Shown here: in pieces, positions 13,452-64,000 of the stretch
Layout: each line of letters starts with the position of its first letter
Position numbering within the stretch: position 1 is the first letter of the stretch
NCBI RefSeq assembly: GCF_964019385.1
Contig: NC_088653.1
Span: forward strand, 11,750,173 to 11,814,172
Direction: 5' to 3'
Length of the DNA stretch: 64,000 nucleotides
Origin: Sycon ciliatum
Taxonomy: Eukaryota > Porifera > Calcarea > Leucosolenida > Sycettidae
The notes under the pieces: model-generated
What the model was told of the DNA's origin: nothing
Database searches by the model: none
The model's input: only the letters and a program-made list of their open reading frames with translations
Translations under genes and position numbers: made by a program

Positions 13452-13497
13452 GCTCAATACACAGTGTTTCGGGGAATTCACCCCTCATCAGTTGAGC
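13452..13497 (-). ncRNA. Type I hammerhead ribozyme, H477 unit 4
   Basis: Identical core and helices, displaced by a further 477 bp. This is the last minus-sense copy before the array inverts at 13693/13694. Confidence 0.9.
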
Positions 13498-14021: not shown

Positions 14022-14039
14022 CTTCCTCAGCCTACTCAA

Positions 14040-14085
14040 GCTCAACTGATGAGGGGTGAATTCCCCGAAACACTGTGTATTGAGC
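14040..14085 (+). ncRNA. Type I hammerhead ribozyme, H477 inverted unit
   Basis: Plus-strand copy: GCTCAA, CTGATGA, GGGG-TGAATT-CCCC, GAAA, stem III and loop, GTA, TTGAGC, all directly readable. Cleavage is predicted after the A at 14079. It shows that the ribozyme sequence is preserved in both orientations of the array. Confidence 0.9.
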
Positions 14086-14233
14086 AGGGAGTGGTGCTTT
14101 CTTGCAGGTTTGCCGAGTCGAAGGTTCGATGGACTTCTCGTGTGCTCTGGATGGCAGTCGTGAGTCAGTCAAGTGTCAAGTAAAGTCGGCGGAATAGCGC
14201 GAGCTCCGGTGTGGGGAGCAAACCTTTCTTACA

Positions 14234-14237
<4 letters not shown>

Positions 14238-14267
<30 letters not shown>

Positions 14268-23212: not shown

Positions 23213-25572
23213 TCATGGAGCGAGCGTATGTGGGATGACTGACATCTTGAAAACACTGCGTTGGGGGATGGTGCGGATGTCACTGGGTAGTGCGTTCCAC
23301 AGCTTGGGAGCGGCAACAGAGAACCTAGCCTGACCAGCGCGGCTTGCGGCGGGTGGTACGTGCGCTCCGATGTCCTTCTGCAAGCGGGTACGCCGATCTG
23401 GTGACCTTGAAATCAGTCCACAGAGCCGGTTTCCCGCAATGCCGTGGATGCATCGCCAGGTGAGCAATAGCGCCTTTTGCTTGTGCAGCTCTGAGATTCG
23501 GTAGAGCTCCACCCGTTGGAGCAGAGGTTGAGCAGAGTCGTATGGCCGAGTGCCAAAAACTGCGCGGACCGCTTTGTTCTCAAGCGTCTGGAGATCCGTT
23601 GCTTGCTGGGCAGTTAGACAGAACACGAAACAACTTGATGCGTAGGTCAGATCCGGCATCACCACGGACTTCAAGTAGGTGACTCGGGCCGCCAGGCTCA
23701 AGCATCTCCGAGTCCGCCAGAGGGCACCTACTTTGCGGGACACCTTCGCTGTAATGGCTTTCAGGTGTTGCTGAAAGTTCAGCCCCTCGTCAATGATGAC
23801 GCCAAGGTACTTGGCGCTGGTGACTGTCGGCAGAGCTTGGCTGCGACAGAGGACTGTGACCCGGGGTCCAGCGTCTCTACCAGGGAAGACTGTGAGAACT
23901 TGACTCTTCTTCTCATTCAGAATCAGTCCTCGCTCTTCCAGCCATTCAGCCCAGGAGGAGACTGCGGTGGAGAGCGTACTGGCAACAGCCTGAGTCGTGT
24001 CAGCGCTACAACATACTGCGACGTCATCGGCGAACTGGATCGTGGCTGCGGATTGGGCTACTTGAGGAACATCTCTTGTGTACACGTTAAAGAGCAACGC
24101 GCCGAGTACCGATCCCTGGGGTACACCCCAGCTGCAAGAGGTGATTGTGCTGCTGCTGGCCCCGAAACAAACTCGCTGTGTCCGCTCACTGAGGTAGCTG
24201 ATGAGCCAGCGAAGGGGTCTGCCTGTCACTCCTAAAGCAAACAGGTCCTGAATGAGACGCTCATGACTGACTTTGTCAAATGCCTTCGAGAGATCGAGAA
24301 AGCACACTCCCGATACCTGGCGTCGATCGCGGGCCTCCAGGAGCGTGTCCGTCAGGACAACCAATGCATCTTCTGTTGAGTAGCCATGCCGGTACGCAAA
24401 CTGCGTGTCAGGCAGCGCATGAACACGGGAAAGCTGACCTTGTAACTGGTTTTGTACAATCCGCTCGAGGATTTTCGAAATAATGGGTAGTAGAGATACT
24501 GGTCTATAATTCCCAGGTGAAGCAGGATCTCCCGATTGGAAGAGGGGGCGAACCTCTGCTAGCTTGAAGGCCCGAGGAACGATACCCGATTTCAGGGACA
24601 TGTTGAAAAGTTGGGTGAGGCTTGGTGCGATGATGTCGGCAGTGGCAAGCAGCAACGATCCTGGGACCCCGTCACTACCGGTTGCTTTTCTGGCGTCGAC
24701 TTTACGGAGCAGTTCGTAAACGGAACCTGCATCACTCCCTCGAAAATCCGAAAGGACTTCCCCTCTCAATGGCCCCTGAGGTTCTGCCAATATGGGAGGT
24801 CTATTGGCGTCGGTCACAACTTGATGGAACGTATTGCCGACCTCTTCAACGTCGCATGTAGGATCCGGTTGTGCTCGGGTACGACCTGTAAGGCTGTTGA
24901 TGAGCTGCCAGAGCTTACGAGGGTTTGCAGATGCACATTGACATGTCTGATGAGAATACGAGTTTCGTTTGCGCCGAATCGCGTTAGATGCCTGCGTCCG
25001 AGCCAGTTTGAATGCACGGTGAAGTGCCATATCTTCGGGGTTCCGGAGCCAGCGCGTGTGCAGCCTATTCCGTGCCCTGATGAGGTGATACGTCTCACGG
25101 TCGGACCATGGAGGTAGAGGCTTGCGGCGCGGTGGTACAGTCTTCATAGGAGCATACCTGTCCAGGACAGTCATAAAGCGCGAGTGCCAATCATGCCACG
25201 TATCATCCACGCTTGACGACTGTGGAAGGGAAGGGAAATGCTGAAGTTCTTGCTCCAGAGCGATTCTGAACTCAGGGATACTTATATTCCGAATCCGCCT
25301 GGCCTGCTTCGATTGAGTCTCTGCACGAGGAACTGAAATGTTCAGGTTGGCGAGCACAGCGCTGTGATCACTGATCAGACAAGGTATCACCCTGCAGCTG
25401 GATACCATCTTCCTGTCCGTGAGGACAAGGTCAATAAGGGTGCCTTTCGGCGTACTTGGAGTGATGCGCGTCACTGCATCCACGCAGTTGGTTAAGTCGA
25501 ACGTGCAGCACAGGCTCTGTAGATGGGTTCGCTGATGATTGTGGTGATTAGCGGACAAGTCCACATTGAAAT
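23213..25572 (-). CDS. LINE polyprotein: endonuclease C-terminal part and reverse transcriptase
   Basis: A 783-codon frame. It opens in the endonuclease C-terminal region (DLSANHHNH, then SDHSAV, the conserved SDH motif). The reverse transcriptase follows: DARKATGSDGVPGSLL, NYRPVSLLPIISKILERI, FLDLSKAFDKVSHERL, WGVPQGSVLGALLFNVYTRD, and the catalytic FADDVAV at about 24018-24035. The C-terminus has the typical ARFSVAAPKLWNALPSDIR motif. It reverse-transcribes its own RNA at the nicked target. The real start lies upstream in another frame, because one base is missing from a C/G homopolymer at 25573-25576. Otherwise the frame is intact. Confidence 0.85.
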
Positions 25573-26085
25573 CCCCAACACCGCTAAAGATGTGGCTGAA
25601 GAGCCAGCACTATGCATGGCACTTTCTAAATCAGTCCAAAACTCCACGGATGTGTCAGGGGGCCTGTAGGCGCAACCGACACGGTGATGCTGTCGATGTA
25701 TCTGTACGTCAACCCACACCAGCTCTAAGCCGCTTACGCTTAGATCTGGGCGCGGTTTGATTGGCAGGGTGGATTTGTAATAGATACACGTGCCGCCACC
25801 TCGCCTGCCGCTGCGATCGGTCCTTGTGAGGCTGTATCCAGGAATAGCTACTTCTCCGTCACCAATAGTGCTGTCCAGCCAGGTTTCGGCCAATCCAAAA
25901 ATATCAAAGTCCTGCACCCGGAGGAGTGCCGTTACTTCATCTACTTTGTAGCGCAAGCTACAGACATTAAAAAAACCTAGTCTAAGCGTTCGGGTATCCT
26001 GGGCGCTCACTAGGCACCAGCGGATTATGTCGGCATAATTATTGGCATAATTTGGTGGTTGAAAATTTGGAGCATAATTTGGCAT
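25565..26085 (-). CDS. LINE apurinic-type endonuclease N-terminal part
   Basis: Minus-strand frame with LRLGFFNVCSLRYKVDEV, the catalytic-site segment FGLAETWLD, RTDRSGRRGGGTCIYY, VWVDVQ and GCAYRPPDTS. This is the order of the exo/endonuclease/phosphatase fold of LINEs. It leaves the correct frame at 25573-25576, just before the expected GDFNVD motif, which appears in the next frame (reverse transcriptase entry). The first ~20 codons are low-complexity N/Y/A from AATTATGCC words and may not be coding. The break may be a real mutation or a homopolymer sequencing error. Confidence 0.75.
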
Positions 26086-37122: not shown

Positions 37123-38736
37123 CTACTCCCTACAGGCGTATGGTACACATGCATGTTTAAACTCAGGTAGCCGGGTAATTGTGCGGACCTCACCAGGGAG
37201 AGCGTTCCACAGCAGAGCACCAGCAACAGAAAATCTCCGCTGACCGCGGCGGCTACGGTTTGCCTGGCTTAGTAGGCCATTTGACTGCTGATGGCGGGTA
37301 GGGGTGCCTTGTGCCGGGGTCAGAAGCTGGGCGAGCACAGGGCTGGTGGGGGCGCCGCGTGGATGCACCGCCAGATGGTGATCAATATGTTCTGCCTGTA
37401 GAGCTCGCTGACACGGTACAGGGAGTGAGCAGTGAACAGCGGCTGCATGGCTGTCCGGGGCGGGTTGCCATCGATACAGCGGATGGCTCTGTTTTGCGTG
37501 GTTTGCAGTCGTTTCAGTTGACCCTCTCGCATTGCGGCTGAAAAACAGCAGGAGCCATAAAGCAGGTCGGGCATTATGACCGCCTTCACATACACCTGAC
37601 GAGAGCGTCTTGATAGGCTTCGGCGTGCCCGCCACAAGGCGCCAATTTTCTTGGCCACCTTGGTGACCACATAGTTTACATGGGTGTCCCAATCTAGGCT
37701 GAACGCCGAGGTAGCGCGCAGAAGACGCTGAGGGGAGGAGACAGTCGCCGCTTTTGACTGTTACTTCCTGTACATGCTGCTGGGGAGAGATAGTCAGAAC
37801 CTGGCTCTTGGTGGCGTTCAAGATGAGGCCTCGGGACTTCAGCCAACCGGCCAGAGCAGTTGCCGCTGTGGTGAGGGTTCTGGACGCTTCCGCCGCTGAG
37901 GCCTGGGAGTCGTACAGGGCTATGTCATCTGCAAATTGTACACTTGGCACAGGCGAGGAAACCAAAGGGACATCGCGTGTGTATATACTGAAGAGAACAG
38001 GGCCGAGAACAGAGCCTTGGGGCACTCCGCAGGTGCAAGCCAGCGCAGGGCTGGTTGAAGGCGAGATGAGGATCTGCTGCTTGCGGCCGGACAAGTAGTC
38101 GACGAACCAACTAAGGGCTTTTCCAGAAATTCCAACCGCAAGGAGGTCTTGAATTAGCTTGTCGTGGTGCACTTTATCAAAAGCCTTCGACATGTCTAGT
38201 AGGCACGGCCCTGTGGTCTTGCCACTGTCTCTCGCCTTCTGCAGATTATCAGTCAGCACACAGAGGGCGTCTTCCGTGGAACATTTCTTGCGGAAGGCAA
38301 ATTGTGTTTCGGGTAAAGCCTGGGTCAAGTCCAAATGACGAACTAACTGGTGTTGCACTACCCTCTCCAGCAACTTGGACACTATTGGGAGAAGGGATAC
38401 AGGTCTATAGTTGGTGGGGACTGATGGGTCACCGGCCTTGTACAGTGGCACGACAGACGCCAATTTAAATGCGGATGGAATGGCTCCAGTCCTCAGCGAG
38501 GTGCAGAACAGCACAGCAAGAGAATATGAAAGCAAGTCAGCACACTGCTGTAGCAAAAAGCCCGGTATGCCGTCACTACCTGTGGCTTTCCGCGCATCCA
38601 ACTTCTCAAGGAGACGTCGGACGTCTTTTTTGAATAGTTGTACTAGATTCACCCTTCGAAAGGTGCCTTCCCGTATGTCACATGACTGTCGCCTTGGAGT
38701 CGACCAATGACAGATCAAATTACGCGGGCTGGACAC
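37123..38736 (-). pseudogene. LINE reverse transcriptase (frameshifted)
   Basis: 537-codon frame carrying LDARKATGSDGIPGFLL, NYRPVSLLPIVSKLLERV, CLLDMSKAFDKVHHDKL, CGVPQGSVLGPVLFSIYTRD and the catalytic FADDIAL (about 37918-37938). After ARYLGV (near 37700) the true frame moves to the ORF at 37670-37320 (VVTKVAKKIGALWRARR...GQLKRLQTTQNRAI) and returns near 37330, ending RRFSVAGALLWNALP. Two compensating frame changes leave the palm intact but scramble the thumb. Inactive as read. Confidence 0.82.
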
Positions 38737-38782
38737 TGTGGACAGCGCGATCCTGCCTGCTGAATGGTGATGGAACTAGTTC

Positions 38783-39706: not shown

Positions 39707-40581
39707 TACATGCAAAAGTCATGTACTGAGTCTGTAGTCCGTGTACGGTTGTCGATGTCACTCAGCTCAGCTCACAGCCTCATAGAGTCATACAGTATAC
39801 AGGACTCGAGTCACAGAATGGTTCATGTAAACTCAGAGATTTAGAAAAGCGATCCTGTCAGCTTTTCTATTATTGTGTTCACATGGCGCTACCTAACGAC
39901 ACCGCTATTCAGACACGTTGTCTACGTAGCTACGTAAGTTTCTACGCAAGATGCTCGGTACCTGGTCCTGGACCAGGGAGCTACTCATATGCCCATGGCT
40001 CCTACCATCGCGCGGCCGGCTGGCCGCATGCGTGTGCATTGCAGACTTTTTGTTGTTGCCTTTTCGGATGTGCATGCACGAGGAATTTCCTTCTTTGGAA
40101 CTGCTTCTTGCATGAGCTGTTTCGGATATTTCGTCTCCTGGCCTGGCTTATTTCGTTTCAGCGCTGCTGAGACCTCCTTTCGCGGAATATTACTCAATGA
40201 CAGGTGAGTTGACCAGTTCCCTTTGATTCATTTGCTTGTGTGGACTCTTTCATTTACGAAAAGTGTGCTGATTTTGGGCGGAATGCAATAAATAATGGAA
40301 AAGCTGACAGGATCTCTTTCTATATTAAATTTTTAGCTTTTCCGCTGCCGAGACCTGCTTTTACGGAATACTCAATGACAGGTGATCTCCGAGTTGACCA
40401 GTTTCCTTCGATTCATTTGTTTATGCTCACCCTTTCATTTACGGAAACGTGTGCTGATTTTATTCGGATTTAGATCCATTTTTATCTCTTTGCCCTTGCC
40501 TACAGTGTGCGAAGAACGCGAGTTCACCTTCTTGACGGTAAGGCTTATGTTAGATGTGTTGTCGAAATACTCATATTCATT

Positions 40582-42468
40582 TTTAGAAATGAAAAACGTA
40601 AAATGTTTGGCACCTATGAAGTCAGGGGATGGCCCACGCCTGGTAAAAAAACAATTAGGAGTTAAATACAAAGAAAACGAACTGAAAATACAAAAGTAAA
40701 TGAAACACCATTACCAAAGAAACTGTACTGTATCATGTACACCGTTTATGGCACCAGGGCACATTCAGCAGCTGCCAGCACAGCCGAACCAGACAGATGT
40801 CGAGACGGGTTCCGACGGTGACCACGTAGACTGGCAACCATTGCTCGAACAAGGCAAAAGGAGATCTTCGCCCGTACAAAAGCCATCATAACCGGGAAAG
40901 GTTCACGGCGCTTTTCACACAGCTTGCTGGCAATCCTGGCAAAGAGTGCCGAAGCAGCTTTCCCCTGGCCGCCAGTGGTTGCAAAAACCACGGGTACAAA
41001 CGAGGAATGCTCCACCTCCAGGACTCGCCGTTCATACTTACGCCTCTTCTCCTGCTCGTGCTTTCTGTAGACAGACGGGAGAGTAAGGTTTCGGTTGGAG
41101 GGGACAAAAGGGTTAAACACCCGAACATCAAACATTGGCCTCTCTAACCTACTCCCATACACTCCACGTGCTGCCACATCAAGACGAGCATGAGCCTCCG
41201 TGTTGGCCGACCGGAGAGGGAATGTTTCACCAGAGAGGGGTTCCAACTCTGGCTCCACGCTGACGTCATGCGCAACCTCACGCAACAGATTAGCGGTTAG
41301 ATCCCGGAGCTCGTTGTGGCGCATCCCAGTGAATCCTCCGATGGCACATGATAGGGCATGGGTGGTGTCGAAGGGCTTTCCACAGGTGTTGTGAGACGGC
41401 AACCGGGGAGGGGTCCAGCCGTAGCGCAGACATAGGGCATCCCGGAAGCCAGCCTTGTGGATGGTAAACTGGAACTGGCGAGATGGCCGACTAGTGAGCC
41501 AACTGGAGGCACCTTTCTCTGCGGCTAGATCCAGAATCCGCCTGTGGTCGTCACTCAGGGTATCCCTGAGGGAGGAGAGGGCCATTGCCTGATCTTGGCG
41601 ATTAGCTGTGCGTTGGGCCGCCTTGGCTGCCTTGGTGGCAGCAACAACTTCCTCGATGGATTCCTCCTGTCGAAGGAGCTGCTCGACTAGAGGTCTGGTG
41701 ACAGCCGTAGACGTGTCGTACTGCTGGGAAAGGGTCCCTGGGTTTAGAATTCCCAAGCCACCATGACGACACGGAAGCGCCAGGATGGCACGTTCTTCCT
41801 CGCCAGGGGCCTGGCGACCAGTCAGTGCAGGGAGGAAAACTTGCCTGATGGAGTTTTCCAGCGGTGTCAAGAGGTCCGCGATGGCTGGCATTGTCCTCGC
41901 AAGGAATGACCACTTATGGCGGAGACCATGGGTAAGGACAGCGTAAGCAGCCTGAGGTTGAGACGCCGCATGTTTGGCGAGGGTCTGCAGCTCTGTGCAC
42001 CATGTGTCAACCTTCTGCAACACGTAACCGTCGCAGAACAGGGCAGAGCCTAGGGCAGCACCAAGATGACGATAGCCGTCCGTCCGGATGTTGACCCCGG
42101 TTGTGGCAAACAATTCTGTTGCTAGCGCAAGATGTTGTGGCTTCACGAGGAGAACGGATTTTGACGGGTTGATGTCGTAACCATACCTGGTGCCTCGATC
42201 TACTAGGATGGACCACCAAGTGCGCATTCGTCGGAGAGCGCCGGCTGAAGTTGCGTCATCGGCATACCAGGACTGCATGGCCCCAGCTGCGGCGGCTTCC
42301 CGGATCAGTGGCACTGTGCCAAACGCATACATTGGCATAGCCAATGGGTCTCCTTGAGTGGTGCCCTCAGAAGACAGGATCACCTCTCCTCCAACATACA
42401 GGTGAGCTGGGGAGCGGTAGGTGTTGATAACAGCTGGCGCGAGCTCAGGACATAGCCGCTGAACATTG
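40582..42468 (-). mobile_element. 5'-truncated LINE of the GTTQGDP/RHN family
   Basis: Flanked by a perfect 12-bp target duplication CTCATATTCATT (40570-40581, 42469-42480). The uninterrupted site survives once in the inverted paralogue (60947-60958). The minus-strand 3' end has a short A-rich end and a 160-bp 3' UTR. A second copy, represented by its C-terminus, is at 11755-14746 with a 16-bp duplication. Random-looking targets with 12-16-bp duplications indicate target-primed insertion. Confidence 0.85.
40746..42466 (-). CDS. Reverse transcriptase with C-terminal zinc/RHN domain (partial)
   Basis: About 573 uninterrupted codons; the first codons of the open frame lie in flanking DNA. RT palm motifs: SSEGTTQGDPLAMPMYAFGT and the catalytic SWYADDATSAG (about 42250-42270); then YGYDINPSKSVLLVK, GYRHLGAALGSALFCDGYV and CRHGGLGILNP. 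The C-terminal third has CGKPFDTTHALSCAIGGFTG followed by RHNELRDL and, after ~50 residues, ARLDVAARG...FDVRVFNPF, an order reminiscent of the zinc-finger, RHN and PD-(D/E)xK parts of restriction-like endonucleases of R2/NeSL-type LINEs. One expected zinc cysteine before CGKPF is replaced. No frameshift in the retained part. Clade not assigned. Confidence 0.72.
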
Positions 42469-42916
42469 CTCATATTCATTGCACATTAGTACGTTACAAG
42501 TAAGGCACTGGTCAGTGGCATACTATCGTTGGCAGTTCCCAATCTAGAGAGAAAGGTTCAAGGACTCATTGACCGAGTTTGCCAAATAAATTCGCATATC
42601 AGGGAAAATCTCCATTGTGGAGAGGTTCAGTAACTTGCATACGAAACAAGCCAATGGGTGCAGTCTCGTCTCTTGAAAATCTCGTCCTTGTATGATTGGA
42701 TTTGTTTACTCGAGTCTGGGCTGTTTGATTTGTGAGTACCGCCGAGATTGCACTGCCCCAAATAAAGTTTCGTGCCGCCAAAGCAAGAATTACGATCTGC
42801 AATCTGTTTGTAGTACCTGTAGTACCTGCAAGAATGTGCAGTACATGTATCGTACTTTCTCTGTTGCTGTTTCAGTTGCCGTCATGTTGCTAAAGAAAGG
42901 TTCAGTAGAGAGGTCC

Positions 42917-45040: not shown

Positions 45041-45169
45041 ACCCTCTTTTGTTTCATACGAGATGCGTCGGTGTGGCTTAGAATCTTTCGCTGTAGAAGA
45101 AACCTATTCGTATGTCTATTGGAGAAATAATTGTATTCACTGGTTATAAAATAGGTTAAGACAAACTCA

Positions 45170-45723
45170 GCAGTCGTGAGTCAGTCAAGTGTCAAGTAAA
45201 GTCGGCGGAATAGCGCGAGCTCCGGTGTGGGGAGCAAACCATTTCTTACAAATCATCGCCGAAGTCGCTACCACTACTTCGTACTGTTGTGCCCAGCGCG
45301 GGCTTGCGACTAGTTGGTTTGGAGGTGACAGCGTTGCGAATGACCGAGGGTCCTCGAAGTCTGTCTCACCGTCCAGGAGCGACACTGACTCACGCTGCTA
45401 TCTGGTGTTCACGAGGTGTTTGTCGCGCTTGAAACGGAGCGTCTCTGTAAGTTTGTATCCCTGGTGATGTTTGTGCCTGGAGAGCACTATATAAGTGGTG
45501 CTCTTCAGGCACAATCTTCCTCAGCCTACTCAAGCTCAACTGATGAGGCGTGAATTCCCCGAAACACTGTGTATTGAGCAGGGAGTGGTGCTTTCTTGCA
45601 GGTTTGCCGAGTCGAAGGTTCGATGGACTTCTCGTGTGCTCTGGATGGCAGTCGTGAGTCAGTCAAGTGTCAAGTAAAGTCGGCGGAATAGCGTGAGCTC
45701 CGGTGTGGGGAGCAAACCATTTC
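45170..45723 (+). mobile_element. Solo H477 element (1.16 units) with 14-bp target duplication
   Basis: Flanked by TTAAGACAAACTCA at 45156-45169 and 45724-45737. The paralogue R carries the uninterrupted site once (60105-60118, complement). The insert starts GCAGTCGTGAGTCAGTCAAG and, one 478-bp unit later, repeats its first ~76 bp, so it is a permuted monomer with direct terminal repeats. It contains the TATA box (45488-45494) and a hammerhead. No protein is encoded. The structure fits reverse transcription of a greater-than-unit-length or circular RNA followed by integration. Confidence 0.9.
45534..45579 (+). ncRNA. Type I hammerhead ribozyme in the solo H477 element
   Basis: Same core as at 14040-14085 with one change: stem II strand GGCG instead of GGGG, giving one mismatch opposite CCCC. 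Invariant CTGATGA and GAAA, stem I GCTCAA/TTGAGC and the GTA cleavage site are preserved. Confidence 0.85.
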
Positions 45724-46914
45724 TTAAGACAAACTCACATAATAAATACCATCGGTCCCTTGGTGATCGTCCTAAAGAGGTTCGACTGGATATCATTCAT
45801 ACTCACCAAAAGATGTGTAAGATTTTATTGTCATGGAGTGCCTTGTTTATCTCTCAGTATCAGTACCTCCAACCATAGCCTTGACCCTTTTATCCTCAGG
45901 ATCAGTGTAGTTGTTGGAACGAGGTGTCGGACTCAGCAATGTATTTGTTTACATTTTAATACATGTTTATTGTTCCTCCTTTGCTGTGTTGTTTTAGAAA
46001 ATCATTGGACTAACAGTTTGAAGTCATTGAACTACTTCCAAAAGTTGTGTCGACATCAACAGGATTACGATTTCAGTGCAATATGATGCTGGATGACCTT
46101 ATCACGATAACCCATGATTATAAACCATTATAAACACAGAATCAACAAAAACATCTGCGACACGCACCTGGCGCATGGCTACAATTCTCAAATAAATCTG
46201 ATCAAGGGTGGGGAAATCTGAAATATCTGAAAGGGAAGACAAATTTATGACAGAGTCATGAAATTCTGCAACAGCAACATGCACAGAAATGACCTCCGTA
46301 TAAAAAAAGTATCACCACCACTACTCGCGTGTTTCCCCGCAGAAGAACATGCATTATGCTAGTGCCATTTTCTGCAAGAAAAGGCTTGCACATCAATGCG
46401 TATAATACGGTATTGATATGATTAACTAAGAGTACATAAACCTCTTGATATGATGTGAAGGCCATCATTCTAGACCTTATTCGATAAACGTCACAATCAC
46501 GTGAACCGGGGTCCCGGGAACCAGGGAGTGGCAAAAGATCTGCGCTCAGTGCACAGTGGACTCTGTGTGCGAACATAGGAGTAGATAAATACCGTCTTTT
46601 ACTACTCTTTTGTACGAACTGGGCCTTTCTTGCCACTCGTTTCTCGTACGCGTGCCCTAGCTTATGACAAATCCCTGGAGGCGAGTCCAAAAATCAGGTT
46701 ATCGAATAAGGTCTATACATATAGGGCATTCCATTGATTGGTGACAGAAAAACAAAAGAAATTATAGCAATAAAAACTGCTTAATGGCAGTTTTCTAAAA
46801 AAAGTTATTGTGTTCTAGTCCATGGACCCCGTCTAAAAAGTAAGAAATTAACGAAATGTGATAGTTGAAAATTAAAATTTCACACAAAACCTCACAATAA
46901 TCACACACAGAATT

Positions 46915-49271: not shown

Positions 49272-49471
49272 AAAAACACAGCCTTTGGTCGTACCACTTC
49301 CAAAACCCCTCCTAGAGTCCTACGCCCCTATGACAGAGCAGTGGAGCTCGATCGCCACCAATTTATTTTGTCACCCTAGCTCGCTGCGGTGCTGAACGTG
49401 TGTGCTGTTGATTTCTAAGTTCTAGTTGGACCCCTGCGACAGGTCCTGTTCGTTTTGCTTAGCACTCTGGA

Positions 49472-50089
49472 ATGGATTGGTGCTGGTGGCGTGGGAAAAG
49501 CGAAACGCATTCCGTCCTGTGTGCAATCGCCATCCTGCTGTTGCCAGTTTGTTCGGCCGTTTCTCTGCCATTCTCCGAGCCAAGAGTACTCACTCGTGAT
49601 GGCTTAGGCGAACAAACACCGCTGTTCCCAGCAGCCGGGCAGCAGCAGTGGCAAAACGAGGAGCTGGAGCTGGATCGCCATGTGAGGCAGACTAGCACCG
49701 CGGTATGCAAGCCCCAGGTGACCGGGATCCGGTTCGTCCAACAGGGCGCCGTGCCGGCCATCTCGACAGAGGAGGATGGCGCGGTTACCGTGGCAACGTT
49801 CAAGGATTCGGAACCTCGCACGGGTGTGTTGCTGGAACTGTTTGGGCTGTGTCTGGACGACGTGTACTCCATTGTATTCCCGCGACCGGAGGGCGAGACG
49901 TGTGCGAACCGGTTTGGGCCCTACTACCTCGACCCTGCCCGGGACCAGAACTCGACGGTGCAGCGCACGTTTCGACTGGACCTGGTCGACGGGCGTGAAC
50001 CGGACTACAACGAGGTGTATCATCTTTGCACTGGCTACGAAGGTGACGACGCCGTGGATGGCTTGCTGCGCCAGGGAGATCTTGTTAAG
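49472..50089 (+). CDS. First exon of a secreted/membrane protein, CNNM-like extracellular region
   Basis: 206 codons ending at a strong donor (AAG|GTATGC, 50089/50090) in phase 0. Start ATG at 49472 precedes a hydrophobic segment VLCAIAILLLPVCSAV, a likely signal peptide (about residues 15-30). Then come a variable linker and a beta-rich region with GVLLELFGLCLDDVYSIVF, a Cys, TFRLDLVDG and a YHLC motif. This order (variable loop, L-x-L-F-G, ...V-F-x-x-P-x-x-x-x-C, ...Y-x-L-C) resembles the N-terminal extracellular part of CNNM metal-transport mediators; that call is tentative. A second, inverted copy lies at 52107-52585. It is the only convincing host gene in the window. Confidence 0.6.
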
Positions 50090-50335
50090 GTATGCCCCAT
50101 AGGCATTTAAGAACAAAGGACCATAGGTTTACAAGTTAACCGTAGTTGTCCAACACTGGCAATTATAAGCTTGACATTGATGAGGCATGACGTGCAACAG
50201 TCGACACAACAATAACCCTTTGGTCCTTTCTTCTTAATTTTATTCCTTGGTTCTCCACCCGAGTTTAATCCATAGGCATTTGGCGTTTCATTCACCCCTT
50301 GTCTCCTAGTATTTGATATGCAGCTGATAATTTAG
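50090..50335 (+). other. Presumed intron start of the CNNM-like gene
   Basis: Begins with the donor GTATGC at 50090; contains stops in all frames. The next exon is not visible before the gap. Confidence 0.45.
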
Positions 50336-51735: not shown

Positions 51736-51906
51736 TCTCTCTCCTTCCCCCCCGCACACCCTTATGGTTGTTTATATCCACTCTTGACATGCCTCTACAA
51801 GTAATTTGTCTTCTCCCATTCTCTGCACAACGCTCATCTAGGTGAAGTTCTTGGTCACCTCTAGCATTCTGCCCATATGGGCGTCCGGTCTGCTGGTTTT
51901 CTTATT

Positions 51907-52106
51907 NNNNNNNNNNNNNNNNNNNNNNNNNNNNNNNNNNNNNNNNNNNNNNNNNNNNNNNNNNNNNNNNNNNNNNNNNNNNNNNNNNNNNNNNNNNNNN
52001 NNNNNNNNNNNNNNNNNNNNNNNNNNNNNNNNNNNNNNNNNNNNNNNNNNNNNNNNNNNNNNNNNNNNNNNNNNNNNNNNNNNNNNNNNNNNNNNNNNNN
52101 NNNNNN
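51907..52106. other. Assembly gap of 200 N
   Basis: Exactly 200 undetermined bases, a conventional placeholder length, so true distance and order across it are uncertain. Confidence 0.95.
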
Positions 52107-52585
52107 TTCTGGTCCCGGGCAGGGTCGGGGTAGTAGGGCCCAAACCGGCTCGCACACGTCTTGCTCTCCGGTCGCGGGAATACAATGGAGTCCACGTCGT
52201 CCAGACACAGCCCAAACAGTTCCAGCAACACACCCGTGCGAGGTTCCGAGTCCTTGAACGTTGCCACGGTAACCGCGCCATCCTCCTCCGTCGAGATGGC
52301 CGGCACGCCGCCCTGTTGGACGAACCGGATCACGGTCACCTGGGGCTTGCATACCGCGGTGCTAGTCTGCCTCACATGGCGATCCAGCTCCAGCTCCTCG
52401 TTTTGCCCCTGCTGCTGCCCGGCTGCTGGGGACAGCGGTGTTTGTTCGCCTAAGCCATCACGAGTGAGTACTCCTGGCTCGGGTAATGCCATAGGAATGG
52501 CCGAACAAACTGCCAACAGCAGAATGGCGATTGCACACAGGACAGAAAGCATTTCGCTTTTCCCCCGCCACCAGCACAAATCCAT
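52107..52585 (-). CDS. Second copy of the CNNM-like first exon (truncated by the gap)
   Basis: Minus-strand frame from ATG at 52585, about 92% identical at protein level to the exon at 49472 (same signal-peptide region, GVLLELFGLCLDDVDSIVF, FGPYY), running into the gap. The 5' flank (52586-52757) also matches 49300-49471 in inverted orientation. The two copies face each other across the gap. This may be a real inverted duplication, two alleles, or a scaffold join error. Confidence 0.6.
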
Positions 52586-52998
52586 TCCAGAGTGCTAAGC
52601 AAAACGAACAGGACCTGTCGCAGGGGTCCAACTAGAACTTAGAAGTCAACAGCACACACGTTCAGCACCGCAGCGAGCTAGGGTGAAAAAATAAATTGGT
52701 GGAGATCGAGCTCCACTGCTCTGTCACAGGGGCGTAGGAGGGGTTTTGGAAGTGGTACGACCGAAGGTCGGCGCGGCCAAAGGCCGTCCTACGTGTAGGC
52801 TACCGTAGTCTACACGTAGGTCTACACGAAGATCTACATTGTACCATGTCGTCATGGTCCAGGCACTGCCACTACTTGGCACTAGCAATAGCATGCCTGT
52901 AGTACTGCCAGTACTGCACTAGGCAGTCTGGTTACACTTACAGTACTTCGCTTTATTTTACTTCACCAGAACTAAGCACAGGCAAAATCTGACTTCTC

Positions 52999-55438: not shown

Positions 55439-55585
55439 TTAAATTTTTTCGAGGAAGAAAAAGGACCAGTGAAGTACAAGTACGAATTAAGCGGGATTCA
55501 CAGAAGCTTTTCGCGATGCGACAGACGCGAAACCGGGAAAACCTCAAATCGCAGCCATGTCGCAGATTGAGTATATATACTCAAT

Positions 55586-55631
55586 CTGCGGACAGCATGC
55601 TGTTTCGTTCTTTTTGAACTCATCAGCGCAG
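55586..55631 (-). ncRNA. Type I hammerhead ribozyme, H228 array 1 unit 1
   Basis: Minus strand: CUGCG, CUGAUGA, stem II GUUC-AAAAA-GAAC, GAAA, stem III CAG-CAUG-CUG, UC cleavage site, CGCAG. Stem I CUGCG/CGCAG is perfect, stem III has four pairs including A15.1-U16.1. Cleavage is predicted after the C of GUC, between 55591 and 55590. Confidence 0.92.
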
Positions 55632-55652
55632 CACAGAGAAAATGAGGCCGAA

Positions 55653-55687
55653 CCTGATAGCAATGGAAATAAAAATTTCCAATCAGG
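55653..55687. other. Interrupted hairpin conserved in each H228 unit
   Basis: CCTGAT (55653-55658) pairs with ATCAGG (55682-55687) and TGGAAAT (55664-55670) with ATTTCCA (55675-55681), with a 5-nt bulge and AAAA loop. Present in every unit of both arrays, so it is probably an RNA structural element. Confidence 0.75.
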
Positions 55688-55813
55688 CCCGAACGTACCT
55701 TGCCAGAGTGCTCAAACTGACAAGTCAGTGAGCTCTGCATAACGCAAACAGCAAAGGCACTACCCCACGCAAGAGTGCTCAACTGCTACAAGAGCAGGAG
55801 CGAAATACTCAAT

Positions 55814-55859
55814 CTGCGGACAGCATGCTGTTTCGTTCTTTTTGAACTCATCAGCGCAG
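55814..55859 (-). ncRNA. Type I hammerhead ribozyme, H228 array 1 unit 2
   Basis: Identical to unit 1, displaced by 228 bp. Confidence 0.92.
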
Positions 55860-56041
55860 CACAGAGAAAATGAGGCCGAACCTGATAGCAATGGAAATAA
55901 AAATTTCCAATCAGGCCCGAACGTACCTTGCCAGAGTGCTCAAACTGACAAGTCAGTGAGCTCTGCATAACGCAAACAGCAAAGGCACTACCCCACGCAA
56001 GAGTGCTCAACTGCTACAAGAGCAGGAGCGAAATACTCAAT

Positions 56042-56087
56042 CTGCGGACAGCATGCTGTTTCGTTCTTTTTCAACTCATCAGCGCAG
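56042..56087 (-). ncRNA. Type I hammerhead ribozyme, H228 array 1 unit 3
   Basis: As unit 1 except for one base in stem II (GUUG against GAAC), which opens the loop-closing pair; the core is unchanged. Confidence 0.88.
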
Positions 56088-56269
56088 CACAGAGAAAATG
56101 AGGCCGAACCTGATAGCAATGGAAATAAAAATTTCCAATCAGGCCCGAACGTACCTTGCCAGAGTGCTCAAACTGACAAGTCAGTGAGCTCTGCATAACG
56201 CAAACAGCAAAGGCACTACCCCACGCAAGAGTGCTCAACTGCTACAAGAGCAGGAGCGAAATACTCAAT

Positions 56270-56315
56270 CTGCGGACAGCATGCTGTTTCGTTCTTTTTG
56301 AACTCATCAGCGCAG
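56270..56315 (-). ncRNA. Type I hammerhead ribozyme, H228 array 1 unit 4 (partial unit)
   Basis: Complete core in a unit that is cut off at about 56323, just beyond the ribozyme. Confidence 0.9.
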
Positions 56316-56342
56316 CACAGATATATATATTATATATTTAAA

Positions 56343-56836
56343 TAGAGAGGTAGGCGAACAAAATTTATATACACACAACAACAAGGTTGTCAGTTTCATA
56401 ATACCAAAAGCTTTTCACCCATTTTCATCAGTGGTTACATGGGAATGAGCAAGAACGAAAACGAAGCCAGAATTTATGCTGGGGGTAGAGAATCAGCAAG
56501 AATATTCTTACGCGCCTCAAGTTCACACTACACTACCATAAGAATGTATGGAGCAGTGGAAAAATGCGGGAAACAACACATGAGGGGAATGCAGTACCAG
56601 AACAAACACGTGATAAAGTTGTCAGTCCAGTTGCAGCTTGAACAGCCGTAGCACCTTGATGTGCTTCAGTGTAGTGTGAACTTGAGGCGCGTAAGAATAT
56701 TCTTGCTGATTCTCTACCCCCAGCATAAATTCTGGCTTCGTTTTCGTTCTTGCTCATTCCCATGTAACCACTGATGAAAATGGGTGAAAAGCTTTTGGTA
56801 TTATGAAACTGACAACCTTGTTGTTGTGTGTATATA
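56343..56836. mobile_element. Penelope-like 3'-end fragments, head-to-head junction 1
   Basis: Antisense PLE sequence (56343-56667) reverses direction at 56668: 56366-56534 and 56668-56836 are inverted copies of ~169 bp, with the spacer continuing the antisense element. The right arm runs into a (TA)n tract holding one CTCAATCTGC word. Confidence 0.78.
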
Positions 56837-56882
56837 TATATATATATATACTCAATCTGCATATATATATATATATATATAA
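56829..56882. repeat. (TA)n microsatellite split by CTCAATCTGC
   Basis: TA runs on both sides of CTCAATCTGC (56851-56860), the stem I flank of the H228 ribozyme. The same TA/CTCAATCTGC association occurs at both arrays. Confidence 0.8.
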
Positions 56883-57013: not shown

Positions 57014-57711
57014 TTTATACTGGGGGTAGAGAATCAGCAAGAATATTCTTACGCGCCTCAAGTTCACACTACACTACCATAAGAATGTATGGAGCAGTGG
57101 AAAAATGCGGGAAACAACACATGAGGGGAATGCAGTACCAGAACAAACACGTGATAAAGTTGTCAGTCCGGTTGCAGCTTGAACAGCCGCAGCACCTTGA
57201 TGTGCTTCTTTTGTCGACACAGCTCTGGCCTCAAACTGCGAATGTACAGCGCCTCCAGTGTGAATCTGTGCGCGCTGTTCCGGGCTGGTGTGATGACACT
57301 GAAGCTGCCGTTGCGTTCTTGTGGGATGCATTCAGGTTGCGCCTGCAAATGCTTTGTGATGGCGCTATCACTTGTTGCCACACGTTTGTCAGGCGGCTTC
57401 TTGTACAGCTTGTCTGGGATATGCTGCTTGATCCTTTCCGAGAATCGCTGACATGTCTCACCAACGTACGTTCGCTCACAGCGACACGCATACTTATAAA
57501 TAAAATTACTATTTTCAAGAGTTGGTGAAACATCCTTCGCGATAGACCTGAATGCGGGCCTGGTTGTATAAATTACAATGGGGGATACTGTAGGATAGCA
57601 GTTCAAAATTGCAGCTTTAATCTTTTTGCGGAAGGCAATGCAATTATGCCCTTTCCACGGCAATTTTGTGATAATACGCGTTGCAGGTTCAAGTTGTGCA
57701 GAAGCTGTATC
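57014..57711 (-). mobile_element. Penelope-like element, antisense 3' part (left arm of 698-bp inverted repeat)
   Basis: Minus-strand copy of the region encoding the GIY-YIG endonuclease and 3' UTR; exact inverted partner of 58149-58846. The antisense block continues left to about 56880. Confidence 0.88.
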
Positions 57712-58697
57712 ATCGCCTGTATCATTGGCCCCAATTCTATAGGCGTTATGTGGATGACACATTCGCAGCATTTCACAACCGGAAACTGGCATTGGAATTC
57801 TCTGAGCGTTTAAATAATCTTCACCCAGCTCTCCAGTTTACAATGGAGGAGGAGAATAATGGAGAATTGCCGTTTCTTGATGTATTGATTAAGCATTCTT
57901 CCACAGAATTGCTCACCACAGTATATAGAAAGCCGACGTTCACAGGTCTTTACACCCGCTGGGACTCGTTTTGTGACACTAGAAACAAAATCAATTTGAT
58001 CAGATCATTAACTTTCAGAGCTAAAACCATTTGCTCACCATCACTATTATCAGCTGAAATTGCTAAGCTAGAGGATATTCTGTGTTCTAACGGTTACCCA
58101 CTCGAAGTACTCAAGCGAGTCATGACAAGCGTTCTTGAACCTAGCCCAGATACAGCTTCTGCACAACTTGAACCTGCAACGCGTATTATCACAAAATTGC
58201 CGTGGAAAGGGCATAATTGCATTGCCTTCCGCAAAAAGATTAAAGCTGCAATTTTGAACTGCTATCCTACAGTATCCCCCATTGTAATTTATACAACCAG
58301 GCCCGCATTCAGGTCTATCGCGAAGGATGTTTCACCAACTCTTGAAAATAGTAATTTTATTTATAAGTATGCGTGTCGCTGTGAGCGAACGTACGTTGGT
58401 GAGACATGTCAGCGATTCTCGGAAAGGATCAAGCAGCATATCCCAGACAAGCTGTACAAGAAGCCGCCTGACAAACGTGTGGCAACAAGTGATAGCGCCA
58501 TCACAAAGCATTTGCAGGCGCAACCTGAATGCATCCCACAAGAACGCAACGGCAGCTTCAGTGTCATCACACCAGCCCGGAACAGCGCGCACAGATTCAC
58601 ACTGGAGGCGCTGTACATTCGCAGTTTGAGGCCAGAGCTGTGTCGACAAAAGAAGCACATCAAGGTGCTGCGGCTGTTCAAGCTGCAACCGGACTGA
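57712..58697 (+). CDS. Penelope-like reverse transcriptase/GIY-YIG endonuclease (N-terminally truncated)
   Basis: Open plus-strand frame. It reads PQFYRRYVDDTFAAF at its start, with the catalytic YVDD at 57747-57758, then GELPFLDVLIKHSSTELLTTVYRKPTFTGLYTRW-like PLE thumb sequence. At the C-terminus lies a GIY-YIG endonuclease: YKYACRCERTYVGETCQRF, SERIKQHIP and RFTLEALYIRSLRPELC. PLEs reverse-transcribe RNA and open target DNA with this nuclease. The RT fingers are missing; the first ~10 codons of the open frame come from the inverted arm. The rest is without frameshift. Neighbours: inverted 3' part on the left, H228 arrays on both sides. PLEs are known to be associated with hammerhead motifs. 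Confidence 0.87.
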
Positions 58698-58860
58698 CAA
58701 CTTTATCACGTGTTTGTTCTGGTACTGCATTCCCCTCATGTGTTGTTTCCCGCATTTTTCCACTGCTCCATACATTCTTATGGTAGTGTAGTGTGAACTT
58801 GAGGCGCGTAAGAATATTCTTGCTGATTCTCTACCCCCAGTATAAAAAAACATAATAATA
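58698..58860 (+). mobile_element. Penelope-like 3' UTR
   Basis: Shared by all PLE fragments here (GTTTGTTCTGGTACTGCATT, CCATACATTCTTATGGTAGT, GAGGCGCGTAAGAATATTCT). Ends at 58846 in AAAAAA and CATAATAATAATA, followed by a 46-bp antisense scrap of the same region (58862-58907). Confidence 0.75.
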
Positions 58861-58907: not shown

Positions 58908-61678
58908 ATAGCAATAAAAACTGCTTTATGGCAGTTTTCTAAAAAAAGTTATTGTGTTCTAGTCCATGGACCCCGTCTAAAAAGTAAGAAATTACCGAAA
59001 TGTGATAGCTGAAAATTAAAATTTCACACAAAACCTCACAATAATCACAACACTTGAAATGCTGCTTTCAACTTTAACTTGTACTGCACCAACAATTGGC
59101 AACATGCATGCATAGGAGAAAGGATCACGAGGGGAAAAGGTCTTCTACATGTAGCTTTTAATTCTGTGTGTGATTATTGTGAGGTTTTGTGTGAAATTTT
59201 AATTTTCAGCTATCACATTTCGGTAATTTCTTACTTTTTAGACGGGGTCCATGGACTAGAACACAATAACTTTTTTTAGAAAACTGCCATAAAGCAGTTT
59301 TTATTGCTATAATTTCTTTTGTTTTTTCTGTCACCAATCAATGGAATGCCCTACATGTACAGTATATCAATATGTAAATGATGGCCTTCACATCATATCA
59401 AGAGGTTTATGTACTCTTGATCATATCAATACCGTATTATACGTATTGATATGCAAGCCTTTTCTTGCAGAAAATGGCACTAGCATGATAATGCATGTTC
59501 TTCTGTGGGGGAACATGTGAGTAGTGGTGGTTATACTTTTTTAGACGCAGGTCATTCTGTGCATGTTGCTGTTGCAGAATTTCATGACTCTGTCATAAAT
59601 TTGTCTTGCCTTTCAGATATTTCAGATTTCCCCACCCTCTATCAGATTTATTTGAGAAATGTAGCCATGCGCCAGGTGCGTGTCGCAGATGTTTTTGTTG
59701 ATTCTGTGTTTATAATGGTTTATAATCATGGGTTATCGTGATAAGGTCATCCAGCATCATATTGCACTGAAATCGTTATCCTGTTGATGTCAATACAACT
59801 TTTGGAAGTAGTTCAATGACTTCAAACTGTTAGTCCCCGATTTTCTGAAACAACACAGCAAAGGAGGAACAATAAACATGTATTAAAATGTAAACAAATA
59901 CATTGTTGAGTCCGACACCTCGTTCCACCAACTACACTGATCCTGAGGATAAAAGGGTCAAGGCTATGGTTGGAGGTACTGATACTGAGAGATAAACAAG
60001 GCACTCCATGATAATAAAAGCTTACACATCTTTTGGTGAGTATGAATGATATCCAGTTGAACCTCTTTAGGACGAACACCAAGGGACCAATGGTATTTAT
60101 GCTGTGAGTTTGTCTTAACTTATTTTATAACCAGTGAATACAATTATTTCTCCAATAGACACACGAATAGATTTCTTCTACAGCGAAAGATTCTAAGCCA
60201 CACCGACTCATTGACTCGTCTCGTATATGAAACAAAAGAGTCACTAGAGAGGTTCTGCAAAACGAAAATGCGTACAAACTTTCGCTCTACATCATGAAGT
60301 GCTAAACTTCGCACGAACTCTCTCAACTGTGGAAGCGAAACTTGCAGGGAACGCGAAATGAAATTTCGTGAGATCGGGTCATGGCGTACGTGCACTTGGC
60401 CCACACAAACTATGAAAATGTGCAGAACGCAAAGTTCATGCAAAAATTCGTACACACTTTCGCAAGGACTGTGGCGAAACTTCGTTCGAATTTTCGTTTT
60501 GCAGAACCTCTCTACTGAACCTTTCTTCAGCAACATGACGGCCACTGAAACAGCAACAGAGAAAGTACGATACATGTACTGCAAATTCTTGCAAGTACTA
60601 CAGGTACTAGAAACAGATTGCAGATCGTAATTCTTGCTTTGGCGGCACGAAACTTTATTTGGGGCAGTGCAATCTCGGCGGTACTCACAAATCAAACAGC
60701 CCAGACTCGAGTAAACAAATCCAATCCTACAAGTACGAGATTTTCATGAGACGAGACTGCACCCATTGGCTTGTTTCGTATGAAGCAAACAAGTTACTGA
60801 ACCTCTCCACAATGGAGATTTTCCCTGATATGCGAATTTATTTGGCAAACTCGGTCAATGAGTCCTTGAACCTTTCCCTCCAGATTGGGAACTGCCAACG
60901 ATAGTATGCCACTGACCAGTGCCTTACTTGTAACGTACTAATGTGCAATGAATATGAGTATTTCGACAACACATCTAACATAAGCCTTACCGTCAAGAAG
61001 GTGAACTCGCGTTCTTCGCACACTGTAGGCAAGGGCAAAGAGATAAAAATGGATCTAAATCCGAATAAAATCAGCACACGTTTCCGTAAATGAAAGGGTG
61101 AGCATAAGCAAATGAGTCGAAGGAAACTGGTCAACTCAGAGATCACCTGTCATTGAGTATTCCGTAAAAGGAGGCCTCGGCAGCGGAAAAGCTAAATTTA
61201 GAAAGGAGATCCTGTCAGCTTTTCCATTATTTATTGCATTCCGCCCAAAATCAGCACACTTTTCGTAAATGAAAGAGTCAACACAAGCAAATGAATCAAA
61301 GGGAACTGGTCAACTCACCTGTCATTGAGTGATATTCCGCGAAAGGAGGTCTCAGCAGCGCCGAAACGAAATAAGTCAGGCCAGGAGACGAAATATCCGA
61401 AACAGCTCATGCAAGAAGCAGTTCCAAAGAAGGAAGTTCCTCGTGCATGCACATCCGAAAAGGCAACAACAAAAAGTCTACAATGCACACGCATGCGGCC
61501 AGCCGGCCGCGCGATGGTACGAGGAGCCATGGAGTAGCTCCCTGGTCCAGGACCAGGTACCGAGCATCTTACGTAGAAACTTACGTAGCTACGTAGACAA
61601 CGTGTCTGAATAGCGGTGTCGTTAGGTAGCGCCATGTGAACACAATAATAGAAAAGCTGACAGGATCGCTTTTCTAAA
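58908..61678. repeat. Repeat copy R, inserted in Penelope-like sequence
   Basis: Interrupts PLE antisense sequence between ...CCATAAGAAT (to 58907) and GTATGGAGCAGTGG (61680 on), with AAT at both borders. 59165-61678 is the inverted homologue of copy L without its LINE and H477 inserts. Its left border carries an extra inverted repeat (58908-59055 against 59165-59312). No recognised protein. Probably a non-autonomous DNA element. Confidence 0.7.
60246..60514. mobile_element. ~270-bp TIR element inside copy R
   Basis: TAGAGAGGTTCTGCAAAACG at the left and its complement at the right (60495-60514), with internal inverted GCGAAAC / GTTTCGC words. No coding capacity. Confidence 0.7.
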
Positions 61679-62385: not shown

Positions 62386-62442
62386 TACCTCTCTCTCTAT
62401 ATATATATATATATATATGCAGATTGAGTATATATACTCAAT

Positions 62443-62486
62443 CTGCGGACAGAACTGTTTCGTCCTTTGTGGACTCGTCAGCGCAG
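62443..62486 (-). ncRNA. Type I hammerhead ribozyme, H228 array 2 unit 1 (variant)
   Basis: 44-nt variant: CUGCG, CUGACGA (position 7 is free to vary), stem II GUCC-ACAAA-GGAC, GAAA, CAGUUCUG, UC, CGCAG. Stem II has compensatory changes relative to GUUC/GAAC, supporting selection on pairing. Confidence 0.9.
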
Positions 62487-62668
62487 CACAGAGGAAATGA
62501 GGCCGAACCTGATAGCAATGGAAATAAAAATTTCCAATCAGGCCCGAACGTACCTTGCCAGAGTGCTCAAACTGACAAGTCAGTGAGCTCTGCATAACGC
62601 AAACAGCAAAGGCACTACCCCACGCAAGAGTGCTCAACTGCTACAAGAGCAGGAGCGAAATACTCAAT

Positions 62669-62714
62669 CTGCGGACAGCATGCTGTTTCGTTCTTTTTGA
62701 ACTCATCAGCGCAG
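62669..62714 (-). ncRNA. Type I hammerhead ribozyme, H228 array 2 unit 2
   Basis: Same 46-nt core as array 1 unit 1. Confidence 0.92.
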
Positions 62715-62896
62715 CACAGAGAAAATGAGGCCGAACCTGATAGCAATGGAAATAAAAATTTCCAATCAGGCCCGAAAGTACCTTGCCAGAGTGCTCAAAC
62801 TGACAAGTCAGTGAGCTCTGCATAACGCAAACAGCAAAGGCACTACCCCACGCAAGAGTGCTCAACTGCTACAAGAGCAGGAGCGAAATACTCAAT

Positions 62897-62942
62897 CTGC
62901 GGACAGCATGCTGTTTCGTTCTTTTTGAACTCATCAGCGCAG
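62897..62942 (-). ncRNA. Type I hammerhead ribozyme, H228 array 2 unit 3
   Basis: Same 46-nt core as array 1 unit 1. Confidence 0.92.
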
Positions 62943-63124
62943 CACAGAGAAAATGAGGCCGAACCTGATAGCAATGGAAATAAAAATTTCCAATCAGGCC
63001 CGAACGTACCTTGCCAGAGTGCTCAAACTGACAAGTCAGTGAGCTCTGCATAACGCAAACAGCAAAGGCACTACCCCACGCAAGAGTGCTCAACTGCTAC
63101 AAGAGCAGGAGCGAAATACTCAAT

Positions 63125-63170
63125 CTGCGGACAGCATGCTGTTTCGTTCTTTTTGAACTCATCAGCGCAG
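63125..63170 (-). ncRNA. Type I hammerhead ribozyme, H228 array 2 unit 4
   Basis: Same 46-nt core as array 1 unit 1. Confidence 0.92.
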
Positions 63171-63377
63171 CACAGAGAAAATGAGGCCGAACCTGATAGC
63201 AATGGAAATAAAAATTTCCAATCAGGCCCGAACGTACCTTGCCAGAGTGCTCAAACTGACAAGTCAGTGAGCTCTGCATAACGCAAACAGCAAAGGCACT
63301 ACCCCACGCAAGAGTGCTCAACTGCTACAAGAGCAGGAGCGAAATATATATTATATATATATATATATATACTCAAT

Positions 63378-63423
63378 CTGCGGACAGCATGCTGTTTCGT
63401 TCTTTGTGAACTCATCAGCGCAG
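63378..63423 (-). ncRNA. Type I hammerhead ribozyme, H228 array 2 unit 5
   Basis: Core unchanged; loop II is ACAAA instead of AAAAA. Confidence 0.92.
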
Positions 63424-63605
63424 CACAGAGAAAATGAGGCCGAACCTGATAGCAATGGAAATAAAAATTTCCAATCAGGCCCGAACGTACCTTGCCAGAG
63501 TGCTCAAACTGACAAGTCAGTGAGCTCTGCATAACGCAAACAGCAAAGGCACTACCCCACGCAAGAGTGCTCAACTGCTACAAGAGCAGGAGCGAAATAC
63601 TCAAT

Positions 63606-63651
63606 CTGCGGACAGCATGCTGTTTCGTTCTTTGTGAACTCATCAGCGCAG
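63606..63651 (-). ncRNA. Type I hammerhead ribozyme, H228 array 2 unit 6
   Basis: Core unchanged; loop II ACAAA. Confidence 0.92.
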
Positions 63652-63833
63652 CACAGAGAAAATGAGGCCGAACCTGATAGCAATGGAAATAAAAATTTCC
63701 AATCAGGCCCGAACGTACCTTGCCAGAGTGCTCAAACTGACAAGTCAGTGAGCTCTGCATAACGCAAACAGCAAAGGCACTACCCCACGCAAGAGTGCTC
63801 AACTGCTACAAGAGCAGGAGCGAAATACTCAAT

Positions 63834-63879
63834 CTGCGGACAGCATGCTGTTTCGTTCTTTGTGAACTCATCAGCGCAG
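63834..63879 (-). ncRNA. Type I hammerhead ribozyme, H228 array 2 unit 7
   Basis: Core unchanged; loop II ACAAA. The unit itself is cut by the window end. Confidence 0.92.
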
Positions 63880-64000
63880 CACAGAGAAAATGAGGCCGAA
63901 CTTGATAGCAATGGAAATAAAAATTTCCAATCAGGCCCGAACGTACCTTGCCAGAGTGCTCAAACTGACAAGTCAGTGAGCTCTGCATAACGCAAACAGC

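Follow-up and report, generated by a model that had tools for sequence, protein, structure and literature searches.

The locus at positions 45156–45737 raises the question of how a repeat that encodes no protein came to be inserted there, and by which enzyme. The repeat, H477, has a unit of 477 bp, numbered here from u1, the first base 3′ of its predicted hammerhead cleavage site, and coordinates refer to the window, the whole 64,000-nucleotide stretch of Sycon ciliatum contig NC_088653.1 that was analysed. The 14-mer TTAAGACAAACTCA is found at both borders of the insert, as a left copy (45156–45169, plus strand), recognised by sequence comparison with an empty site, and a right copy (45724–45737, plus strand), whose TTA also belongs to the H477 unit. 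Between them lies a single arm of H477 (45170–45723, plus strand), which runs from u75 to u149–152 and measures 554 bp, or 1.161 units of 477. Alignment of the insert ends gave a left terminal repeat (45170–45248, plus strand, u75–u152) and a right one (45648–45726, plus strand), the latter ending at the 3′ site referred to below as A, with one mismatch in 79 nt; the repeat is 76 nt if the TTA common to the right duplication is excluded. Since this TTA also forms the next bases of the H477 unit, the duplicated target is 11 to 14 bp long and not fixed at 14.

The empty site lies in a paralogous segment (60105–60118, minus strand), whose complement carries one copy of TTAAGACAAACTCA, and the flanks of the occupied and empty sites align with identities of 122/136 and 100/106. 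As a control, 63,246 window positions were examined for a direct repeat longer than 7 flanking a 554-bp spacing, and the solo site alone showed one (14). A second empty site was identified at locus L033, on contig C11, where the joined flanks of the solo align over 192 bases, ungapped and with 4 mismatches. L033 is an H477 insertion itself, within a third copy of the solo's flanking repeat, and the solo's site is empty there. Thus, the insertion that a sequence-only reading had deduced from the occupied and empty sites is borne out at both, and its values of 1.16 units and a 76-nt terminal repeat were recovered, as was its 14-bp duplication, though with the overlap at TTA. The two inverted paralogous segments that it described do align as an inverted pair, but they belong to a repeat present at least three times. 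H477 at 45156–45737 is confirmed as a real insertion with a target duplication.

The same paralogous segment holds a second insertion (40570–42480), in which an RT-coding piece (40582–42468) is flanked by the 12-bp duplication CTCATATTCATT; its empty site, with one CTCATATTCATT copy, is at 60947–60958, and RVT_1 was detected in this piece only at E 0.039.

The H477 unit has a GC content of 53.7% and 3 to 8 stops in each of the six frames of the circular unit, with no ORF. Folded as a circle it reaches −193.2 kcal/mol (z −4.5 against 60 shuffles), and the antisense circle also gives z −4.2, so the self-pairing is not strand-specific. In the solo, a type I hammerhead was recognised by motif at 45525–45588 (plus strand), with the core CUGAUGA at 45540 and predicted cleavage after 45573. 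In the drawn fold, the inner stem I has 6 bp and stem II 4 bp, stem III is short, and there is an internal loop. All 17 of its 17 pairs are standard in an array copy, whereas the solo carries one G-to-C change in stem II relative to the array copies, which leaves the third pair mismatched; the minimum-energy fold of the hammerhead 64-mer differs from the drawn hammerhead. In all, 37 loci yielded 113 hammerheads, of which 99 match that of the array exactly and 109 keep the core. Judged on this motif, H477 carries a type I hammerhead with an intact core and is predicted to self-cleave. The Rfam search of the window returned no matches at gathering scores, and H477 was unreported even at E up to 5, where the rows were mostly simple repeats. 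The H477 motif had no matches in a viral contig set or in a general genome contig set. A TATATAAG box at u392, within a hairpin and 52 bases upstream of the hammerhead core, is a possible promoter candidate; published retrozymes are said, in a passage of PMC7761336, to lack a promoter.

Three other identities were considered for H477 and rejected. It does not appear to be a SINE, as a tRNA gene search of the window found none and the 3′ ends of the listed loci enter the target directly, with no poly(A) or other simple tail. It is not a plant LTR retrozyme, as its duplications are 11–16 bp rather than 4 bp and its end repeats are overlaps of one unit. Nor is it a Penelope-like element (PLE) proper, as it has no ORF; the claim made here is only that it moved like one.

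A second H477 locus in the window has a different shape. It is an array whose left arm (11840–13693, minus strand, 3.9 units) has its outer 3′ end at a second site, B (u185–187), and whose right arm (13694–14239, plus strand, 1.1 units) meets the left one head to head and has its outer 3′ end at site A (u154–160), overlapping the AAT target. The flank sequence shows this (AAT)n target on the left (11828–11840) and on the right (14234–14265) of the array.

The source genome (538.4 Mb in 313 contigs) was searched with H477, and 135 matches were obtained from the 40 of 699 candidates that were scored. With 39 loci fetched and the 2 in the window, 41 loci were available, which were reduced to 37 by removing the duplicates L032, L044, L066 and L068; L059 and L061 were kept as separate loci, their flanks being common and their arms different. 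Leaving out 3 of 71 blocks that were shorter than 40 nt (27, 30 and 39 nt) gave 68 arms. In these 37 deduplicated loci, the RNA-sense 3′ ends of 65 of the 68 arms fall in window A (u145–161; 36 arms) or B (u181–190; 29 arms), which together make up 27 of the 477 unit positions. The 5′ ends are scattered, and none of the 68 lies in either window (3.8 expected). The three exceptions among the 3′ ends are at u448 (L041), u362 (L064) and u195 (L052), the last of which becomes B after the duplication is subtracted. Since the windows had been drawn after viewing this first set, the test was repeated with a differently permuted H477 query, which gave 215 matches from 40 of 760 candidates. Among the matches listed for loci outside the first set, 38 of 41 3′ ends were in A or B, a number that may count repeats of one locus as these loci were not mutually deduplicated (P about 3e-30 under a null of 21/158 positions, as the matches listed show only ends within u151–308). 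The permutation of the unit across copies, which the sequence-only reading had proposed to tabulate, is thus variable at the 5′ end but not free, the 3′ end being fixed at two sites.

Two head-to-head arms, as in the array, were found in 28 of the 37 loci, and the solo in the window is the atypical, rarer one-armed form (8/37). One locus is tail to tail (L060). In 25 loci both arms are at least 40 nt, always with the minus arm first and the plus arm second, making 26 pairs; in L036, L037 and L053 the second arm is a very short piece. The outer ends of a pair are one A and one B in 22 of the 24 scorable pairs of the first set, the other two being A/A (L038 and L056), and in 9 of 9 second-search loci for which both ends were among the matches listed. 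Combined, 31 of 33 pairs are A/B, against 49% expected from the observed proportions of A and B (P about 5e-8). By eye, L037 and L053 are further A/B cases, which were left out of these counts.

Of the 20 loci that do not abut (ATT)n, 14 have target duplications of 11–16 bp and 6 have none; that of L037 was read by eye, and L035 sits in (AAAT)n, which makes it weaker evidence. Thus, the outcome that the sequence-only reading had set against itself, that other copies would lack duplications of the target, did not come about. At 17 of 37 loci, an outer end has an (ATT)n run of at least 4 units no more than 60 bp away; in the window, 0.7% of positions are that close to such a run, half of the four runs concerned being the array's own flanks. 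Several H477 ends overlap the target by 1–5 nt. At L059 and L061, H477 copies whose arms differ sit at an identical 16-bp target, the flanks being paralogous; either a target hot spot or one old event common to both could account for them.

What was copied can be judged from the arms themselves. The hammerhead site is crossed by 59 of 68 arms, 126 times in total and up to 8 times in one arm. No 3′ end is at the cleavage site u477, and only 1 of 68 5′ ends is within 5 nt of it. As arms run through the site repeatedly, the cleaved monomer in linear form was not the template. The copies diverge by 0.57% within an arm, by 0.87% between the two arms at one locus (inflated by L058, which contains two elements) and by 1.60% from locus to locus. 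At L057, eight laps in two arms show no differences in 6,960 compared sites and carry two private variants; over all loci, 9 private variants at 6 loci are fixed in both arms. Out of 153 private variants, 133 were seen once, 15 are fixed and 5 are at intermediate frequency. A further 49 minority variants, of which only 9 are CpG transitions, are common to other loci and unfixed within their locus; some template heterogeneity, conversion or recurrent mutation may be behind them. Both ends of the solo have an additional A at u145, but this was dropped as proof of one template, since it is the majority state of the family. An RNA circle would be the simplest template, and a homogeneous multimer is also compatible. 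The earlier proposal that a protein-free ribozyme repeat moved as a unit through circular or multimeric RNA is supported and fits all these findings.

Taken together, the shape of the sister copies suggests that H477 may be copied from circular RNA by Penelope-type retrotransposon enzymes, and we consider it probable that H477 forms a retrozyme circle which a PLE-type enzyme reverse-transcribes, with both strands of the target serving as primers. Tandem H477 units would be transcribed, the hammerhead would cut the RNA and the monomer would be closed into a circle. A PLE-type RT-endonuclease would then cut the strands of an AT-rich target 11–16 nt apart, the distance seen in the duplications, and the exposed 3′ ends of the target would prime at two fixed RNA sites, located by the arm ends at about u149–157 (A) and u183–188 (B). 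Usually both strands would be extended, one from A and the other from B, as in the observed pairs. Each cDNA would run back along the RNA and past the cleavage site, often for several laps, which are seen in the arms, on a template presumed circular. The two cDNAs would stop at unfixed points and be joined head to head through the 0–5 nt of microhomology found at the joins. The solo in the window would have been primed at A through TTA, extended for one lap and 76 nt, and joined to the other end of the target. Evidence against this model comes from the two arms that end elsewhere, the two A/A pairs, the six loci with no duplication and L060.

Among the alternatives, the one that survives best, though we hold it unlikely, is that a multimeric transcript, linear and uncleaved, has its natural 3′ ends at A and B and could be copied from there by any RT, which would explain fixed 3′ ends and multi-unit arms with no need of a circle. 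This does not, however, lead one to expect an A end and a B end in each insertion, and a long transcript should be cut by hammerheads so well preserved (99 of 113 identical and 109 with the core), while ends at u477 are nearly absent (no 3′ end and 1 of 68 5′ ends). Moreover, if the multimer were heterogeneous, intermediate frequencies should be common among the variants within a locus, and only 5 of 153 private ones have them, the 49 shared unfixed ones aside.

Somewhat less plausible still is that a LINE-type enzyme moved H477 and that the two-armed copies are products of ordinary twin priming. The 11–16-bp duplications and the microhomology at the joins are compatible with LINE activity, and two LINE-like RT ORFs with RVT_1 are present in the window (23213–25609 and 37123–38775). 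In twin priming the second arm starts at an unfixed internal point, whereas here both outer ends are fixed and opposite in 31 of 33 pairs; in addition, neither poly(A) nor any other tail is present at the 3′ ends of the listed loci. Repeats of Nematostella that carry 15-bp duplications have been likened to LINE products in part of PMC4918200.

Of the same low plausibility is the view that the solo is a remnant of a longer array after unequal crossing-over, or a reinserted extrachromosomal DNA circle. Loss of whole units leaves both ends and the duplication intact, so the original number of laps is unconstrained, but such contraction leaves the conclusion of an insertion with duplication untouched, and a DNA circle predicts neither fixed 3′ ends, nor A/B arms, nor 1.16 units.

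The inner joins of the arms bear on how the two arms met. Microhomology there spans 0–5 nt, with a mean of 1.95 nt against a null of 0.66 (n = 21) and at least 2 nt in 12 of 21, and palindromes are not the rule. The inner ends of the 26 pairs are mostly distant in the unit, by up to about half a unit. The least likely origin of the head-to-head arms is PLE-type self-priming with an antisense template, which part of PMC3846280 puts forward for the PLEs of Adineta because their inverted junctions carry palindromes. Such snap-back should join the arms at or near the same unit position, and only 6 of 26 pairs, counted by hand, have inner ends at most 25 positions apart (about 3 expected).

The window contains pieces of an RT element at 55.5–62.4 kb, among them a head-to-head pair of terminal (pLTR) sequences (56321–56839) with the tail (as at B) on the left end and no tail (as at A) on the right, and an ORF fragment with part of the RT and the C-terminal region (57675–58697, plus strand), found by ORF and protein searches, whose role in H477 movement is putative. 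Relatives of this element contain RVT_1, with GIY-YIG in 6 of 120 among the matches listed. Pfam detected RVT_1 in the longer homologue P0001, and no GIY-YIG in P0001 or in the window fragment. We call the element a PLE, tentatively, from the domains of its relatives, from the terminal sequence repeated around the ORF start and from motifs known from PLEs.

In the source genome, 87 of 8,247 candidates for this PLE were scored, with 84–100% identity, and 9 of the 87 keep an 843-aa frame with no stop; it is a young family. A query with its terminal sequence gave 55 matches, 25 of which continue into the ORF. Of the other 30 ends, 28 are at two sites 29 nt apart (19 at q279–281 and 9 at q249–252). 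The initiation region of H477 showed no similarity to that of this PLE (score 19.5 against a shuffled mean of 20.5, reached by 302 of 500 shuffles). The resident PLE targets (TA)n in the examples seen and H477 targets (ATT)n; as these microsatellites differ, another PLE family may be the partner of H477.

Other repeats lie among these pieces. Two inverted PLE arms (57014–57711 and 58149–58846; 698 bp) are 100% identical and mark a very recent event. A second hammerhead tandem repeat, with a unit of 228 bp (55577–56321 and 62434–64000, minus strand), is joined to PLE terminal sequence; both of its arrays stop 14 nt past the predicted cleavage site, the same 13 bases are present on two PLE ends, and its motif had no matches in the viral contig set. 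A duplicated ORF (49463–50110 and 51902–52594), with one protein match in the database, adjoins a 200-base N gap (51907–52106).

By its sequence features, H477 appears closest to the metazoan non-LTR retrozymes. As described in part of PMC7229834, these share with it a type I hammerhead, short tandem repeats ranging from just over a monomer to multimers, the noncoding nature and lack of LTRs, target duplications longer than 4 bp, highly self-paired RNA and co-resident PLEs. Their units are 150–450 bp against 477 bp in H477, and their GC content is below 50% against 53.7%, a descriptive and non-defining trait. The portion of that account considered here makes no mention of fixed 3′ ends, two arms or A/B pairing. 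Excerpts of PMC7229834 and PMC7761336 name PLEs as the likely but unproven mobiliser of retrozymes, with no motif to decide.

H477 ends like a PLE without being one. PLE pLTRs are reported in part of PMC3846280 to have a 31-bp tail on one of two inverted copies, 8–10-bp duplications and AT-rich targets, and H477 is alike in its head-to-head terminal pieces, one-sided optional tail of about 30 nt, short duplications and AT-rich targets. PLEs and H477 also have in common a hammerhead within their terminal region and, on the model proposed here, two sites where RNA copying starts and extension of both strands (PMC3846280, PMC11167929, each in part). In the assay described in sections of PMC11167929, a PLE protein extends both target strands from two internal RNA sites, ATT is preferred and the RNA start site has no homology to the cut DNA; H477 differs in this last respect by the 1–5 nt overlap with the target at several ends. 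Unlike PLEs, H477 has no ORF, none is joined to it in 41 loci, and its arms are multimers of a short unit.

Plant LTR retrozymes are likewise protein-free hammerhead retroelements with a circular RNA route, which H477 would share, and differ in their type III hammerheads, LTRs and 4-bp duplications (PMC4918200, in part). The same source already holds an empty-site proof for citrus retrozymes and 15-bp duplications for Nematostella repeats. The schistosome W elements and SMα are also repetitive and hammerhead-bearing, with possible target duplications; according to part of PMC8490949 they are transcribed and include SINE-like or tRNA-linked members, whereas the H477 window has no tRNA gene. Within the open-access literature, which leaves most subscription papers outside its reach, we found no paper on two-armed or tailed retrozymes, and the anatomy of H477, a protein-free hammerhead repeat with two arms and 3′ ends fixed at two sites, looks new.

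The question of which enzyme moves animal retrozymes is here addressed by the scars of 37 insertions and many more ends. As a template, H477 encodes no protein and has ends that are readable at single-base resolution, and its RNA is a ready, short substrate for an in vitro PLE assay. The A/B rule makes a sharp and testable claim on the way in which a PLE enzyme handles the two strands of a target and two start sites on the RNA. We put at even chances the further proposal that a dimeric PLE protein holds one circle, with its subunits starting at A and at B on one target strand each, and that animal retrozymes are parasites of PLEs. If this is true, a single insertion would write two head-to-head concatemers from the same circle, and the inverted ends of PLEs would come from two-ended target priming and not from self-priming.
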